Below, piece after piece: positions 39,944 through 46,294 of a stretch of DNA of 64,000 bases. Made by a program: the position numbers and the translations under genes. The notes beneath the pieces are model-generated. The model did no database searches. It saw nothing but the letters and a program-made list of their open reading frames with translations, and was not told the DNA's origin. The stretch is from the NCBI RefSeq assembly GCF_020991365.1, contig NZ_JAJLRA010000010.1, positions 124,001 through 188,000 on the forward strand, given 5' to 3'. Every line of letters starts with the position of its first letter. Position 1 is the first letter of the stretch. The stretch comes from Streptacidiphilus sp. ASG 303. GTDB taxonomy: Bacteria > Actinomycetota > Actinomycetes > Streptomycetales > Streptomycetaceae.

Positions 39944-40966
39944 TCAGGAATCGCCGCCCGGGGCCGCGGCGTCCCGGGCGGCGCCGTCGCGGTCGGCGGG
40001 GGTGGCCAGCGAGAGGCCGAAGCGCTCCTCCGGGTCGGTCCACCAGTGGACCAGCTCCAGTCCGGCGGCGGCGAGTTCGGCGGTGATGCCGCGGCGGCGG
40101 AACTTCGCGGAGACCTCGGTGCGGAGCTCCTCGCCCTCGGCGAAGGGGACGGCCAGGTCCAGGTCGCGGATCTTGACGGTCTGCTCGCGGAGGGAGCGCA
40201 GCCGCATCTCGATCCACTCGTTCGCGGCGTTCCAGTGGGCGACGTGCGCGAAGGCGTCGGGGTCGAAGTCCGCGTCGAGCCCGCGGTTGACGACGTGCAG
40301 GACGTTCCGGTCGAACGCGGCGGTGACACCGGCCGCGTCGTCGTAGGCGGCGACCAGGACGGCCGGGTCCTTCACCAGGTCGGTGCCGACGAGGAGGGAG
40401 TCGCCCGGCTCCAGCTCCCGCCGCAGGGCGGCGAGGAAGGCGGCCCGCTCGTCGGGGAGCAGGTTGCCGAGGGTGCCGCCGAGGAAGGCGACGAGGCGGG
40501 GGCCGCGGGTCGGCGGGAGCGCCAGGGTCGCGGTGAAGTCGGAGACCAGGGCGTGCACGGCGAGGCCGGGGTACTCGGCGGCCAGGGCGTCGCCCGCCTC
40601 CCGCAGGGCGCTCTCGCTGACGTCGACGGGGACGTAGGACTCCAGGGTGCCGAGGTCGCGCAGCGCGTCCAGCAGCAGCCGGGTCTTCTCGGAGGAGCCG
40701 GAGCCCAGCTCGACCAGGGTGCGGGCCCGGGTGGCCGCGGCGGCCTCGGCGGCGCGGGCGGTGAGGATGGCCCGCTCGGCGCGGGTGGGGTAGTACTCGG
40801 GCAGCCGGGTGATCTGCTCGAAGAGCTCGCTGCCGCGGGCGTCGTAGAACCACTTGGGCGGGAGCCACTTCGGATCCGCCGTCAGCCCGGTGCGCACGTC
40901 GTGGCGGAGGGCGGCGTCGAAGTGGTCGGCGGGCAGCAGGCGGGTGAGGTCGAACGGTGCGGCCAT
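39944..40966 (-). CDS. egtD: L-histidine N-alpha-methyltransferase EgtD
   Basis: A 340-residue SAM-dependent enzyme that trimethylates histidine to hercynine, the first step of ergothioneine synthesis. The SAM loop is [16 protein letters not shown]; histidine-site regions FLGGTLGN and TEVSAKF are conserved (the family uses an Asn and an E-x-S in these places). ATG 40966 has GAGGAGG 7 nt upstream. It is the last gene of egtA-egtB-egtC-egtD, 91 bp after egtC. Confidence 0.95.
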
Positions 40967-41057
40967 GGCGGGGCCTCCTCTCACGGGAAGGGTGGGGTGC
41001 CGTCGGGGTCGGGCGGCGGTGCGCGCCGGCCGGGGCGGGACGGCCGGCGCGGGCCGG

Positions 41058-41810
41058 TCAGCCCGGCGGTCCCGCCAGGGGGCGGACGGTGACGGCGTCG
41101 GCGGTCGCGAGCAGCAGCGACCCGTCGGGGACGGCGGTCCAGCCGGGCAGGTCGTCGCCCGGCTCGGAGGCGACCAGGGCGCAGCGGCCCGGCTCCAGGC
41201 GGTGGAAGAGGGTGTCGCCCCAGGTGGTGGCGGCGATGGCGGTGCCGTCGGTGAGGAGCAGGTTGAGGCGGGCGTCGCCGCGGGCGGCGACGTCGGCGAC
41301 GGTCGCGGCGAGGGCGTCGCCGGGCGCGGCGCCGTCCCGCAGCCGCCGCAGGACCAGGGCCCAGACCAGCGCGGAGTCGCAGCGGGCCTCCATGGAGAGG
41401 AGGTCGGCGGGCGGCAGGGCGGCGGCCAGGTCGGCGAAGGCGGCGGGCCAGCCGGGCAGGGCGCCGTTGTGGCTGAAGAGCCAGCGGTCGGCGGCGTAGG
41501 GGGCGGCGGCGGCCTCGCCGGGGGCGCAGCCGTCGGTGGCGGAGCGCACGGCGGCGAGCAGGGCGCGGGTCCGCACGACCCGGGAGAGGTCGGCGAAGGA
41601 CGGGTCGGCCCAGATCGGTCCGGAGCGGCGGTAGCGGGCGGGCACGGGGTCGCCGTCGGCGTACCAGCCGATGCCGAAGCCGTCGGCGTTGACGGTGCCG
41701 TACTTCTGCATGCGCGGCGCCCAGGACTGCTGGTGGAGCCCGTACGGGGGCGCGGTGACCAGGTCGCGGACCGCCCGGGGCTCGCCGACGTAGGCGAGGT
41801 GGCGGCACAT
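41058..41810 (-). CDS. egtC: Gamma-glutamyl hercynylcysteine sulfoxide amidohydrolase EgtC
   Basis: A 250-residue class-II glutamine amidotransferase-fold hydrolase that removes the glutamyl group from the EgtB product. The N-terminal nucleophile is Cys2 (MCRHLAYVG), and [10 protein letters not shown] and [11 protein letters not shown] are the conserved substrate-pocket blocks. Its ATG overlaps the egtB stop by one base (TGATG), so translation is coupled. Confidence 0.94.
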
Positions 41811-43288
41811 CAGGCGGCCCCGGGGGCGGTGCGGCCGGCGGTGCGGGGCTCGGCGTCGCGGGCGGTGCGGAAGCCGGAGAAGATCTGGCGCCGCACCGGG
41901 TGGTCCCAGTTGCGGAAGGTGCCCCGGCAGGCCACCGGCGCGACCCCGAAGGAGCCGCCGCGCAGCACCCGGTAGTCGCCGCCGAAGAAGACCTCGGAGT
42001 ACTCGCGGTAGGGCCAGGCGCGGAAGCCGGGGTAGGGCGTGAAGCGGCTGGAGGTCCACTCCCAGACGTCGCCGATCAGCTGGCGGGCGCCGTGCGGGGA
42101 GGCGCCGGCGGGGTGGCTGCCGGCGGGGGCGGGCCGCAGGTGGCGCTGGCCGAGGTTGGCGTGCTCGGGGGTGGGGTCGGCGTCGCCCCACGGGTAGCGG
42201 CGGGAGCGTCCGGTGGCGGGGTCGTGGCGGGCCGCCTTCTCCCACTCGGCCTCGGTGGGCAGGCGGCGCCCGGCCCAGCGGGCGTACGCGTCGGCCTCGT
42301 ACCAGCAGACGTGCACGACCGGCTCGTCCGCGGGGACCTCCTCGGTGCGGCCGAAGCGGCGGCGCAGCCAGGTCGCGCCGTCGCGGGTCCAGAAGAGGGG
42401 GGCGGTGAGGCCGGCCCGCTGCCGGTGGTCCCACCCCTCCGGGGTCCACCAGCGGGGGTCGTCGTAGCCGCCGTCGGCGACGAACCGCTGGTAGGCGCCG
42501 TTGGTGACCGGGACGGTGTCCAGGTGGAAGGCGGGGACGTGCACGGTGTGGGCGGGGCGCTCGTTGTCCAGCGCCCAGGGCTCGGTGGAGGTGCCCATGG
42601 TGAAGTCGCCGCCGGGGACGAGCACCTCGGCGGGGAGCGCGGCGGCGTCGGCGGGCGCGGGGGGCGGCGCCGGGTCGTCGAGGACGGGCGGGCCCTGGCG
42701 GAGCTGGTGGGTGATCAGCATGGTCTCGTCGTGCTGCTGCTCGTGCTGGGCGACCATGCCGAAGGCGAAGCCGCCGCGCAGCAGCGGGTCGCCGTCCAGG
42801 GCGGCGGCCTCCAGGACGTCGAGGACCCGGCCGCGGACGTCGTGGGCGTAGGCGCGGGCCTCGGCGGGCGGCAGCAGCGGCAGGGAGGGGCGTTCGGCGC
42901 GGGGGTGCTCGAAGGCGTCGTAGAGGGAGTCGATGCCGGGGAGCAGGGGGTCGCGGCCGCCGACGGTGCGCAGCAGCCAGAGCTCCTCCTGGTTGCCGAT
43001 GTGGGCGAGGTCCCAGACCAGGGGCGACATCAGCGGCGAGTGCTGGGCGGTGAGGTCGCGGTCGTCGACGCTGCCGGTGAGGACCGCGGTGCGGGCGCGG
43101 GCGGCGAGCAGTTCGGCGGCGATGCGCTCGCGCAGCGCCTCGGCGGGCAGCGCCTCGGGGCGCGGGGGCCCGGCGGGGAGGGAGGCGCGGGCGGCGTCCG
43201 TCGCGGCCTCCGTCGCGCCGCCCGGGGCGGTGCCCGGCCGGGTGCCCGACGGCGTGCCCGACGGCGTGTTCGGCTCGGTGTTCAGCAC
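41810..43288 (-). CDS. egtB: Hercynylcysteine sulfoxide synthase EgtB
   Basis: A 492-residue non-heme iron enzyme joining hercynine to gamma-glutamylcysteine with O2. The N-terminal DinB-like domain holds the iron histidines in WDLAHIGN and [10 protein letters not shown]. The C-terminal FGE-sulfatase domain has [29 protein letters not shown] and RVLRGGSFG. The first 45 residues are a Thr/Pro/Gly-rich leader with PSGTPSGT repeats. GTG 43288 overlaps the egtA 3' end by 7 bp. The use of gamma-glutamylcysteine is inferred from the presence of egtA and egtC. Confidence 0.95.
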
Positions 43289-44655
43289 GGGGCGGTCTCC
43301 TGCGTCGTCGCGGTGTCGGTGCCGGGGCCCCGCCGGGAGCGGCCGGCCAGGGCGTCCAGCTGGTCGTCGGCGGGACATCGCCCGGCGGCGGTGTAGCGGT
43401 CGGCGAAGGCGGCGAGGGCGTTCCGCACCGCGGGCGGGGCGTCCAGCCGGGGCAGCGCGCCGTCGGCGGCGGCGAAGCAGGCGAGGGCGGCGCGGCGCAG
43501 CGCGGGGTCGGCGACGGCGTGGGTGGAGGCCCTGGTCCACAGGGAGCCCCGGGGGGCCGGGAGGTCCCGGTCGGGGTCGCCGAGGGGCTCCAGGGCCGCG
43601 AGGGCGGCGTCGGCGGCGCGGGGGTCGTCCAGCAGGGCGGTGACCAGCGCGGTGGGGACGAGCCAGCCGTCGCCGGGCTGGGCGTCGATCATGCGCAGTT
43701 CGAAGTGCCCCTGGGGCCGCACGGGCGGGAAGAGGGTGGTGAGGTGGTAGCCGAGGTCGTCCAGGGTGGGCGGCCGCTCCCCCGCGCCGCGCAGCCAGTC
43801 GCGGAAGGTGAGGCCGCTCGGGGCGGTCCAGGGCCGGCCGCCGGGACGGCGCACGCAGAGCAGTTCGGCGTCGAGGGCGGCGCGGGCCCAGGCGGCGCGG
43901 GGGTCGCCGGCCAGCGGGGCAGGGGCGAGGGTGTGGGTGGGCTCCATCCGCTCCCACACGGCCTGGCGGGTGGAACGGCGGCCGGTGGGCCGCCCGTCCA
44001 GCAGCGGGGAGTTGGCGAAGGCCGCCACCAGGACGGGCCCGAGGAGGTGCAGCAGCCGCCAGCGGTCGCGGAAGCCGTGCGGCCCGGGTCCGTCGGTGCC
44101 CGCGTCCACGCAGACCTGCACGGAGGCGCTGGCGCACATCATGACCCGGCCCCAGGGGCCTCCGCGTCCGAAGAACTCCGCCATGGCGGCGTACCGGGGG
44201 GCGCGGACCACCATGCGGCGGCCGCGCGGGTGGGGGTCGGTGCCGGTGCCGGCGAGGTTCAGGCCGCGGGCGGCGAAGGCGCCGCGGAGGACGGCGAGGT
44301 CGCGCAGCACGGTCTCGGCGCAGTCGGCGAGGGATTCGGCGGGCGGGGAGCTGAGCTCGACCTGCCCGCCGGGTTCGCGGGTGAGGAGGGAGCCCCCGGG
44401 GAGGGCGGGGGGTCCGGGCCGGAGGCCGAGGGCCTCGACGGCGGCGTCGGTGCGGGCCGGGTCCACGGGGGCGGCGGCGTCGCGGGCGTCCTGGACGATC
44501 CACTCCAGTTCGACGCCGACCCGGCGCGGCGGACCGATCTTGAAGCAGACGCTGGCGACGTACGCCTCGGCCTGCGACTCGGTCAGCGGGGTCACGGTGG
44601 GCGGTGCCTGCGGCGGCCCGGCGTCGGTCTGTATCGGGGGGCGTACGGGTTTCAC
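43282..44655 (-). CDS. egtA: Gamma-glutamylcysteine synthetase-like ligase EgtA
   Basis: A 457-residue glutamate-cysteine ligase homologue making gamma-glutamylcysteine for EgtB. The ligase signature GVELEW lies near residue 50; later conserved segments are [27 protein letters not shown] and [17 protein letters not shown] 44655 is chosen because GGTGA precedes it at 5 nt; GTG 44664 is possible. It starts the egtABCD run, 131 bp after a PLP lyase gene on the same strand. Confidence 0.93.
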
Positions 44656-44786
44656 TCGGCTCACCGTCCCTCGGTCTTGCGGCCCGGGGCTCACTGCCCA
44701 GTCTGCACCGAAGCATGCCCGCGCGGCGGCAAACCGCCGCGGCGCCGAGGTGTCTGCGCAGGTCGGGGCGGTGTGGGCGGCGGGGT

Positions 44787-46022
44787 TCAGGACTGCGCCG
44801 GACGGGTGAGGCGGTCGAGCGCCGTCGCGAGGAGCGGGCGGGGCAGCGCGTAGTTCAGCCGCAGGAAGCCGGGGGCGCCGAAGTCCGCACCGTCCTGGAG
44901 GCCGAGTCCGCGCTCCTCCAGCAGCAGCCGGCAGGCCCCGGCGGCGGGCAGGCCCAGCGCGGCGGCGTCCAGCCAGAGCAGGTAGGAGGCCTGCGGCGGG
45001 GAGGGCACGGCGCCCGGGGCGGCCCGGCGCAGGGCGTCCAGGGCGAGGTCGCGGCTGCCGGCCAGGTACCCGAGCAGGCCGTCCAGCCACGGCCCGCCGT
45101 GCTCCAGGGCGGCGTTCTGCACCAGTTGGGCCGTCAGGCCGCCCTCCCACAGGCCGTATCCGGCCATCGCCTCCCGCAGGCGCTCCCGCAGCACGGGGTC
45201 GGGGACGAGGGCGAAGGCGCTGGGGAGGCCCGTGGTGTTGAAGGTCTTGCCCACGGAGTTGAGCGTGACGACGGAGGGGGCGAGGTCGCCGGCGGCGTCC
45301 ACCGCGACGGGGTGGGACACGCCGGGGTGGACCAGGTCGGAGTGGACCTCGTCGGAGACCAGCACCCCGCCCGCGTCGGCCGCCGCCTCGGCCAGCGACC
45401 GCACGGCGGAGCGCGGCCACACCCGGGCGGTGGGGTTGTGCGGGCTGCTGAGCAGGACGGCGGACAGCGGGCGGCCCGCGAACCCCCCGACGGGCAGGCG
45501 GTAGCCGTCCGCCTCCAGGGCCAGCGGCACCTCCTCGTACGGCAGCCCGGCCGCCCGGCAGGTGGGGGCGAAGCCGCCGTACTCGGGCACCGGGGCCAGC
45601 ACCGGTCCGCCGCGGCCCGCGGCGCGCAGCACCTCCAGGAGCAGGCGGACGGCGGTGCGCGGGCCGAAGGGCAGCAGCAGCACCCAGTCGGGGTCGACGG
45701 CGGCGCCGTGGCGGGCCCGGTACCAGGCGGCGACCAGGTCGCGGCCGCGCGGGTCGCAGACGGTGTAGCCCCAGGCGCGGTGCGCGGCGCGGGAGGCCAG
45801 GGCCTCGGCGACGGCGGGCGGGCCGGGGAGGTCCATGTCGGCGAGGCCCAGCGCGATCCGGCCGGGGCGGCCGTCGGCACCGGCGGCGGCCCACTTGCTG
45901 CTGCCGGTGCCGGAGCGGTCGAAGGGGAGGTCGAAGCCGGTGGGCGGCGCGTCGGTGGGCGGGCCGGCGGTGCGCCGGTCGTCGGTGGGCCGGTCGTCGG
46001 TGGGCCGGTCGTCGGTGTCCAG
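44787..46022 (-). CDS. PatB/MalY-type PLP C-S lyase, no canonical start codon
   Basis: A fold-type I PLP enzyme. Cofactor residues are seen in [12 protein letters not shown] (Asn), [10 protein letters not shown] (Asp) and [14 protein letters not shown] (Schiff-base Lys), matching cystathionine beta-lyase PatB/MalY and related aminotransferases. The first ATG (45836) falls inside the conserved ALGLADMD motif. The frame runs upstream through [15 protein letters not shown], the family N-terminus, to a stop at about 46063 without ATG, GTG or TTG. A CTG at 46022 with GGAGG 4 nt upstream is the best start (411 residues); a frameshift to the GTG at 46033 is the alternative. The next gene on this strand is egtA, so it may supply the EgtE C-S lyase step of ergothioneine synthesis. 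Confidence 0.82.
45975..46019. repeat. Three 15-bp tandem repeats (PTDDR) in lyase N-terminus
   Basis: Units CCGGTCGTCGGTGGG start at 45975 and 45990, and a degenerate copy starts at 46005. On the minus strand they encode PTDDR repeats just after the proposed CTG start. Being a multiple of three, copy changes keep the frame. Confidence 0.8.
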
Positions 46023-46294
46023 GGCTCCTCCACGGGGTCGCGCGGGCGGGCGTCCCTCTCCCTACCCGCGCGACCGGACCGCGACGCCGGCGGCGGACGG
46101 TGGGCGGCGGCGCCGGGGCGGGGCGGGGCCGGTACGGGCGGGCGGGCGGGCGGAGGCGGTCTGGTCCGGCGGGCGGGCGTCGGCTAGCGTCGTCCCGCCC
46201 CCGGCCGGAGCCGCCGCGGGCGCCCGCCCGACCGCGGGCCCGCCCGTGGACCGGAGGGGCCCGCGGGTCCCGTCCGCACCCTCCTGGAGTCCCC

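Follow-up and report, generated by a model that had tools for sequence, protein, structure and literature searches.

How can translation begin in a gene whose conserved N-terminus is preceded by no ordinary start codon? The window, that is, the whole 64,000-nt stretch of Streptacidiphilus DNA that was analyzed, contains such a gene for a PLP-dependent lyase. Its minus-strand reading frame spans 46061 to 44787 (424 codons) and closes with the TGA at 44787; between the TAG at 46064–46062 and the ATG at 45836 the frame contains no ATG, GTG or TTG. The earlier note had reported this lack of an ordinary start before an in-frame stop, with correct coordinates and frame. The near-cognate codons in frame upstream of ATG 45836 are CTG 46022, AAG 45896, ATC 45857 and CTG 45851, among which only the CTG at 46022–46020 is preceded by GGAGG. 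When the bases of the 141-nt open stretch are shuffled, 0.3% of the shuffles contain an in-frame CTG with GGAGG 4–10 nt upstream. The features of the start region and the gene are:

46062–46064, minus strand: in-frame stop TAG, the upstream limit of the lyase frame (from the ORF reading).
46027–46031, minus strand: Shine-Dalgarno sequence GGAGG, 4 nt upstream of the CTG and kept in the congener (from sequence and comparison).
46020–46022, minus strand: CTG, the proposed start codon; GTG at the homologous position of the congener (from sequence and comparison).
45938–46017, minus strand: tandem repeat with a 15-bp unit, 5.3 copies and 87% matches, coding for a (PTDDR)n-like N-terminal extension.
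45837–45926, minus strand: conserved N-terminal segment of the lyase (...GLAD), upstream of the first ATG (from orthologue comparison).
45834–45836, minus strand: first in-frame ATG, an internal Met of the ADMD motif with no Shine-Dalgarno sequence (from sequence and orthologues).
44787–46022, minus strand: PatB/MalY-type C-S lyase gene, 411 codons counted from the CTG (from the ORF and from profile and structure matches).

The tandem PTDDR repeats described earlier are real, but the repeat extends beyond the three exact PTDDR copies and occupies most of the interval between CTG 46022 and the conserved domain. The RNA around the lyase start shows no unusual structure (z = 0.76 and 0.60), with no indication of a structured control element.

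The earlier suggestion that CTG 46022, with its GGAGG, could initiate gains support from G001, a species of the same genus with a closed genome and a lyase protein 80% identical to that of the window. The congener reads GGAGGAGCC-GTG-GAC where the window reads GGAGGAGCC-CTG-GAC; in a longer view, CATGCGGAGGAGCC-GTG-GAC in G001 stands against CCGTGGAGGAGCC-CTG-GAC in the window. Within this island of Shine-Dalgarno sequence and start codon 14 of 15 bases agree, a level reached in 3 of 20000 shuffles of the congener leader. The 4-nt spacing is short and counts against a CTG start, though the spacing in the congener is identical. Upstream of the island the two species do not align, nor do their extensions from start to domain, which at 33 codons in the window and 16 in the congener differ about twofold in length. 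The island was located by direct comparison, as MAFFT, run on the entire leader, aligned the start region wrongly. The CTG is seen in one genome only (one genome of the species); the congener has GTG, and the third species of the genus is without the gene. Other orthologues, each with a leader of its own, have an ATG, GTG or TTG before the domain, and the 5′ end of the lyase gene therefore evolves fast. The simplest account of this comparison is that an ancestral GTG start would have changed to CTG by one base in the lineage of the window, with the Shine-Dalgarno sequence and its spacing kept. The reverse direction, from CTG to GTG, is less simple because the ancestor would have to be CTG.

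We favor, with a probability of roughly 0.7, the reading that this is an intact PatB/MalY-type C-S lyase gene, the first of an ergothioneine cluster, and that its start, ancestrally GTG, is now a rare but genuine CTG. The retained GGAGG, 4 nt from the CTG, would position the ribosome, and the initiator tRNA would read CTG as Met to yield a 411-residue protein with an N-terminal extension rich in (PTDDR)n. Use of the CTG as start is what the comparison suggests; initiation from it would probably be weaker than from GTG, and if the CTG is used the output of the lyase is probably lowered.

CUG start codons are allowed in NCBI translation table 11 and are known but rare in bacteria. Common gene finders ignore CTG starts, so that such starts are rarely annotated; here they would trim the N-terminus of an otherwise intact enzyme. 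In reconstructions across related genomes, one of 5,080 ancestral GUG starts had switched to CUG (PMC5622118). Taken together with the thousands of GTG genes in a genome, this rate makes one case per genome rare, yet not surprising. As in the rare bacterial CUG starts (PMC5622118), the CUG of the window has a Shine-Dalgarno sequence, is the sole start available and is one base from GUG; it differs from the described bacterial cases in that it is deduced from sequence comparison alone. No experimentally verified CTG start from actinobacteria, Streptomyces included, was found in the literature searched. The case is a well-argued example of an already known rare phenomenon, and its gene neighborhood is interesting.

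Alternatively, the CTG may be a base-call or assembly error, the real sequence being GTG and the gene an ordinary one. The congener carries GTG at this position, the assembly is a draft of 200 contigs, and the site is very GC-rich and lies beside a tandem repeat. Nevertheless, a lone substitution at exactly the start base is, by rough reasoning, improbable in a consensus, and both the frame and the repeat are otherwise clean. We consider such an error unlikely; as a rough estimate, a real CTG appears likelier than an error at that exact base.

The mutation may also be real and largely silence the gene, in which case the start would be lost, translation would be negligible, and the gene would be a very young pseudogene. 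Among bacterial starts CUG has a share of 0.024%, and in E. coli it initiates very poorly, with expression at 0.86% of the AUG level (PMC11497404). A mycobacterial reporter carrying a Shine-Dalgarno sequence showed no enrichment of CTG among its starts (PMC4633059). Distant paralogues with about 30% identity are also present in the same genome. The state of the gene speaks against a silencing lesion. The frame has neither stop nor frameshift, and in the 170 columns where at least 90% of the outgroups agree the window and the congener have 4 private changes each, a weak argument as a recent loss leaves no trace. Between window and congener dN/dS is 0.41 for the N-terminus and 0.34 for the remainder, and both translations retain the PLP-lysine motif SVGKTFN. 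The gene thus looks intact and free of signs of decay, as far as sequence can tell for a lesion that may be recent, and silencing seems an improbable explanation. A CTG whose counterpart in a relative is GTG provides a clean natural experiment on CUG initiation in high-GC actinobacteria, hosts in which the mycobacterial reporter predicts that CUG should hardly work.

Translation could instead begin at ATG 45836, leaving the upstream segment untranslated. This is the first ordinary start and the choice expected of a gene finder, but it has no Shine-Dalgarno sequence in front of it, and the segment that it would leave out is conserved. The N-terminus of the lyase is conserved in 35 outgroup orthologues besides the congener, and against these and the congener the differences in the FDR...AD segment fall mainly on third codon positions (283, compared with 199 at first and 139 at second positions). 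This pooled count was used in place of dN/dS against single distant orthologues, which was noisy (0.19–0.88 over about 28 codons). Inclusion of the upstream segment raises the score against the PatB family TIGR04350 from 220.5 to 239.9 bits, a gain of 19 bits. The segment also belongs to the PatB fold: residue 3 of the solved PatB structure 6qp3 aligns to residue 5 of the query, which was translated from 45947. With a start at 45836 the fold would therefore lose its first thirty-odd residues. By comparison, then, the upstream segment is predicted to be translated. Orthologues do not all start at the equivalent of ATG 45836, as would be expected if it were the true start; they have upstream starts of their own, and in one (L080) the Met of ADMD that corresponds to Met45836 is replaced by a Leu encoded by CTG. 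The Met of ADMD therefore cannot be a general start and ATG 45836 is internal, which makes initiation there very unlikely.

The other route proposed earlier, initiation at GTG 46033 followed by a one-base ribosomal shift into the lyase frame, is scarcely credible: the GTG does exist, in a different frame that is open through the repeat, but canonical −1 slippery heptamers and runs of five identical bases are both absent, the GTG is not conserved (the congener reads GCGGAGG), and it is without a Shine-Dalgarno sequence of its own, the GGAGG falling after it.

The enzyme itself can also be placed. PF00155 is matched above its gathering score and the lysine motif SVGKTFN is present, which together mark a fold-type I PLP enzyme with its active-site lysine. 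The best of 43 matching families is TIGR04350, whose curated cut-off is missed (239.9 against 340 bits); the lyase is therefore named PatB-type and not a member of the family. Among solved structures 6qp3 matches best, along the entire protein and with the N-terminus included. The window lyase thus resembles PatB/MalY-type C-S lyases (TIGR04350; 6qp3) across its full length, N-terminus included, and departs from them in its score below the TIGR04350 cut-off, its variable N-terminal extension and its location in an ergothioneine cluster. The cluster comprises, after the lyase:

43282–44655, minus strand: egtA, above the NCBIfam cut-off.
41810–43288, minus strand: egtB, above the NCBIfam cut-off.
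41058–41810, minus strand: egtC, above the NCBIfam cut-off.
39944–40966, minus strand: egtD, above the NCBIfam cut-off.

The order lyase-egtA-egtB-egtC-egtD is contiguous on one strand (39944–46022), with the lyase first, and egtA adjoins the lyase in every orthologous locus examined. Since egtA, about 130 nt downstream of the lyase, starts at its own GTG, it need not suffer from a weak lyase start.

EgtE is the hercynylcysteine sulfoxide lyase known from mycobacteria. Like EgtE (TIGR04343), the window lyase is of the PLP-dependent C-S lyase type and is encoded alongside egtABCD, yet it belongs to a different family: a TIGR04343 search of its own genome did not list the window lyase and returned other loci only, none over the cut-off. 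A search of 200 Streptomycetaceae genomes found no TIGR04343 member over the cut-off. Of 395 sampled Streptomycetaceae relatives, 386 have EgtA and 34, confined to two genera, have a close lyase orthologue (E ≤ 1e-120). The third species of the genus (G002), whose assembly is fragmented into 800 contigs, is without a close lyase orthologue and without EgtA, which suggests that the ergothioneine cluster was lost there. It is plausible, from neighborhood and chemistry, that the PatB-type lyase acts in place of EgtE in Kitasatospora and in the genus of the window, where it would cleave hercynylcysteine sulfoxide. The papers ranked highest for EgtE and ergothioneine make no mention of PatB. The place of the lyase at the head of egtABCD makes it a candidate enzyme for the EgtE step that is missing in Kitasatospora-type bacteria. 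A stronger proposal, that the PatB-type lyase is the unrecognized EgtE of the clade and that its output in this species is held low by a CTG that was selected rather than accidental, is quite unlikely.

The 5′ end of the lyase gene has a further peculiarity in other genomes. A near-perfect palindrome (AACAGATGACAGATTTCGAAATCTGTCATCTGTT and variants) lies in frame at this end in many Kitasatospora-type genomes, at loci L029, L031, L032, L033, L034, L035, L042, L047, L071 and L078, and at L027 a similar palindromic element lies upstream of the lyase gene instead. The palindrome seems to supply the start codon and the first residues of the lyase, MTDDxFQRTDDRFRNLSSV, in the Kitasatospora-type loci, where the start taken is only the most plausible triplet, and it resembles a REP/MITE-type element inserted into coding sequence. 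A likeness between the (PTDDR)n extension and this Kitasatospora N-terminus was dropped as support, the latter being the repetitive element read in frame. The neighborhood upstream of the lyase varies as well: in the congener (L090:8383-9576) an aldose 1-epimerase gene lies between the lyase gene and an SMP-30/gluconolactonase gene, and the window (46100–46290) has no such epimerase gene, its SMP-30 gene lying immediately next to the lyase gene in divergent orientation.
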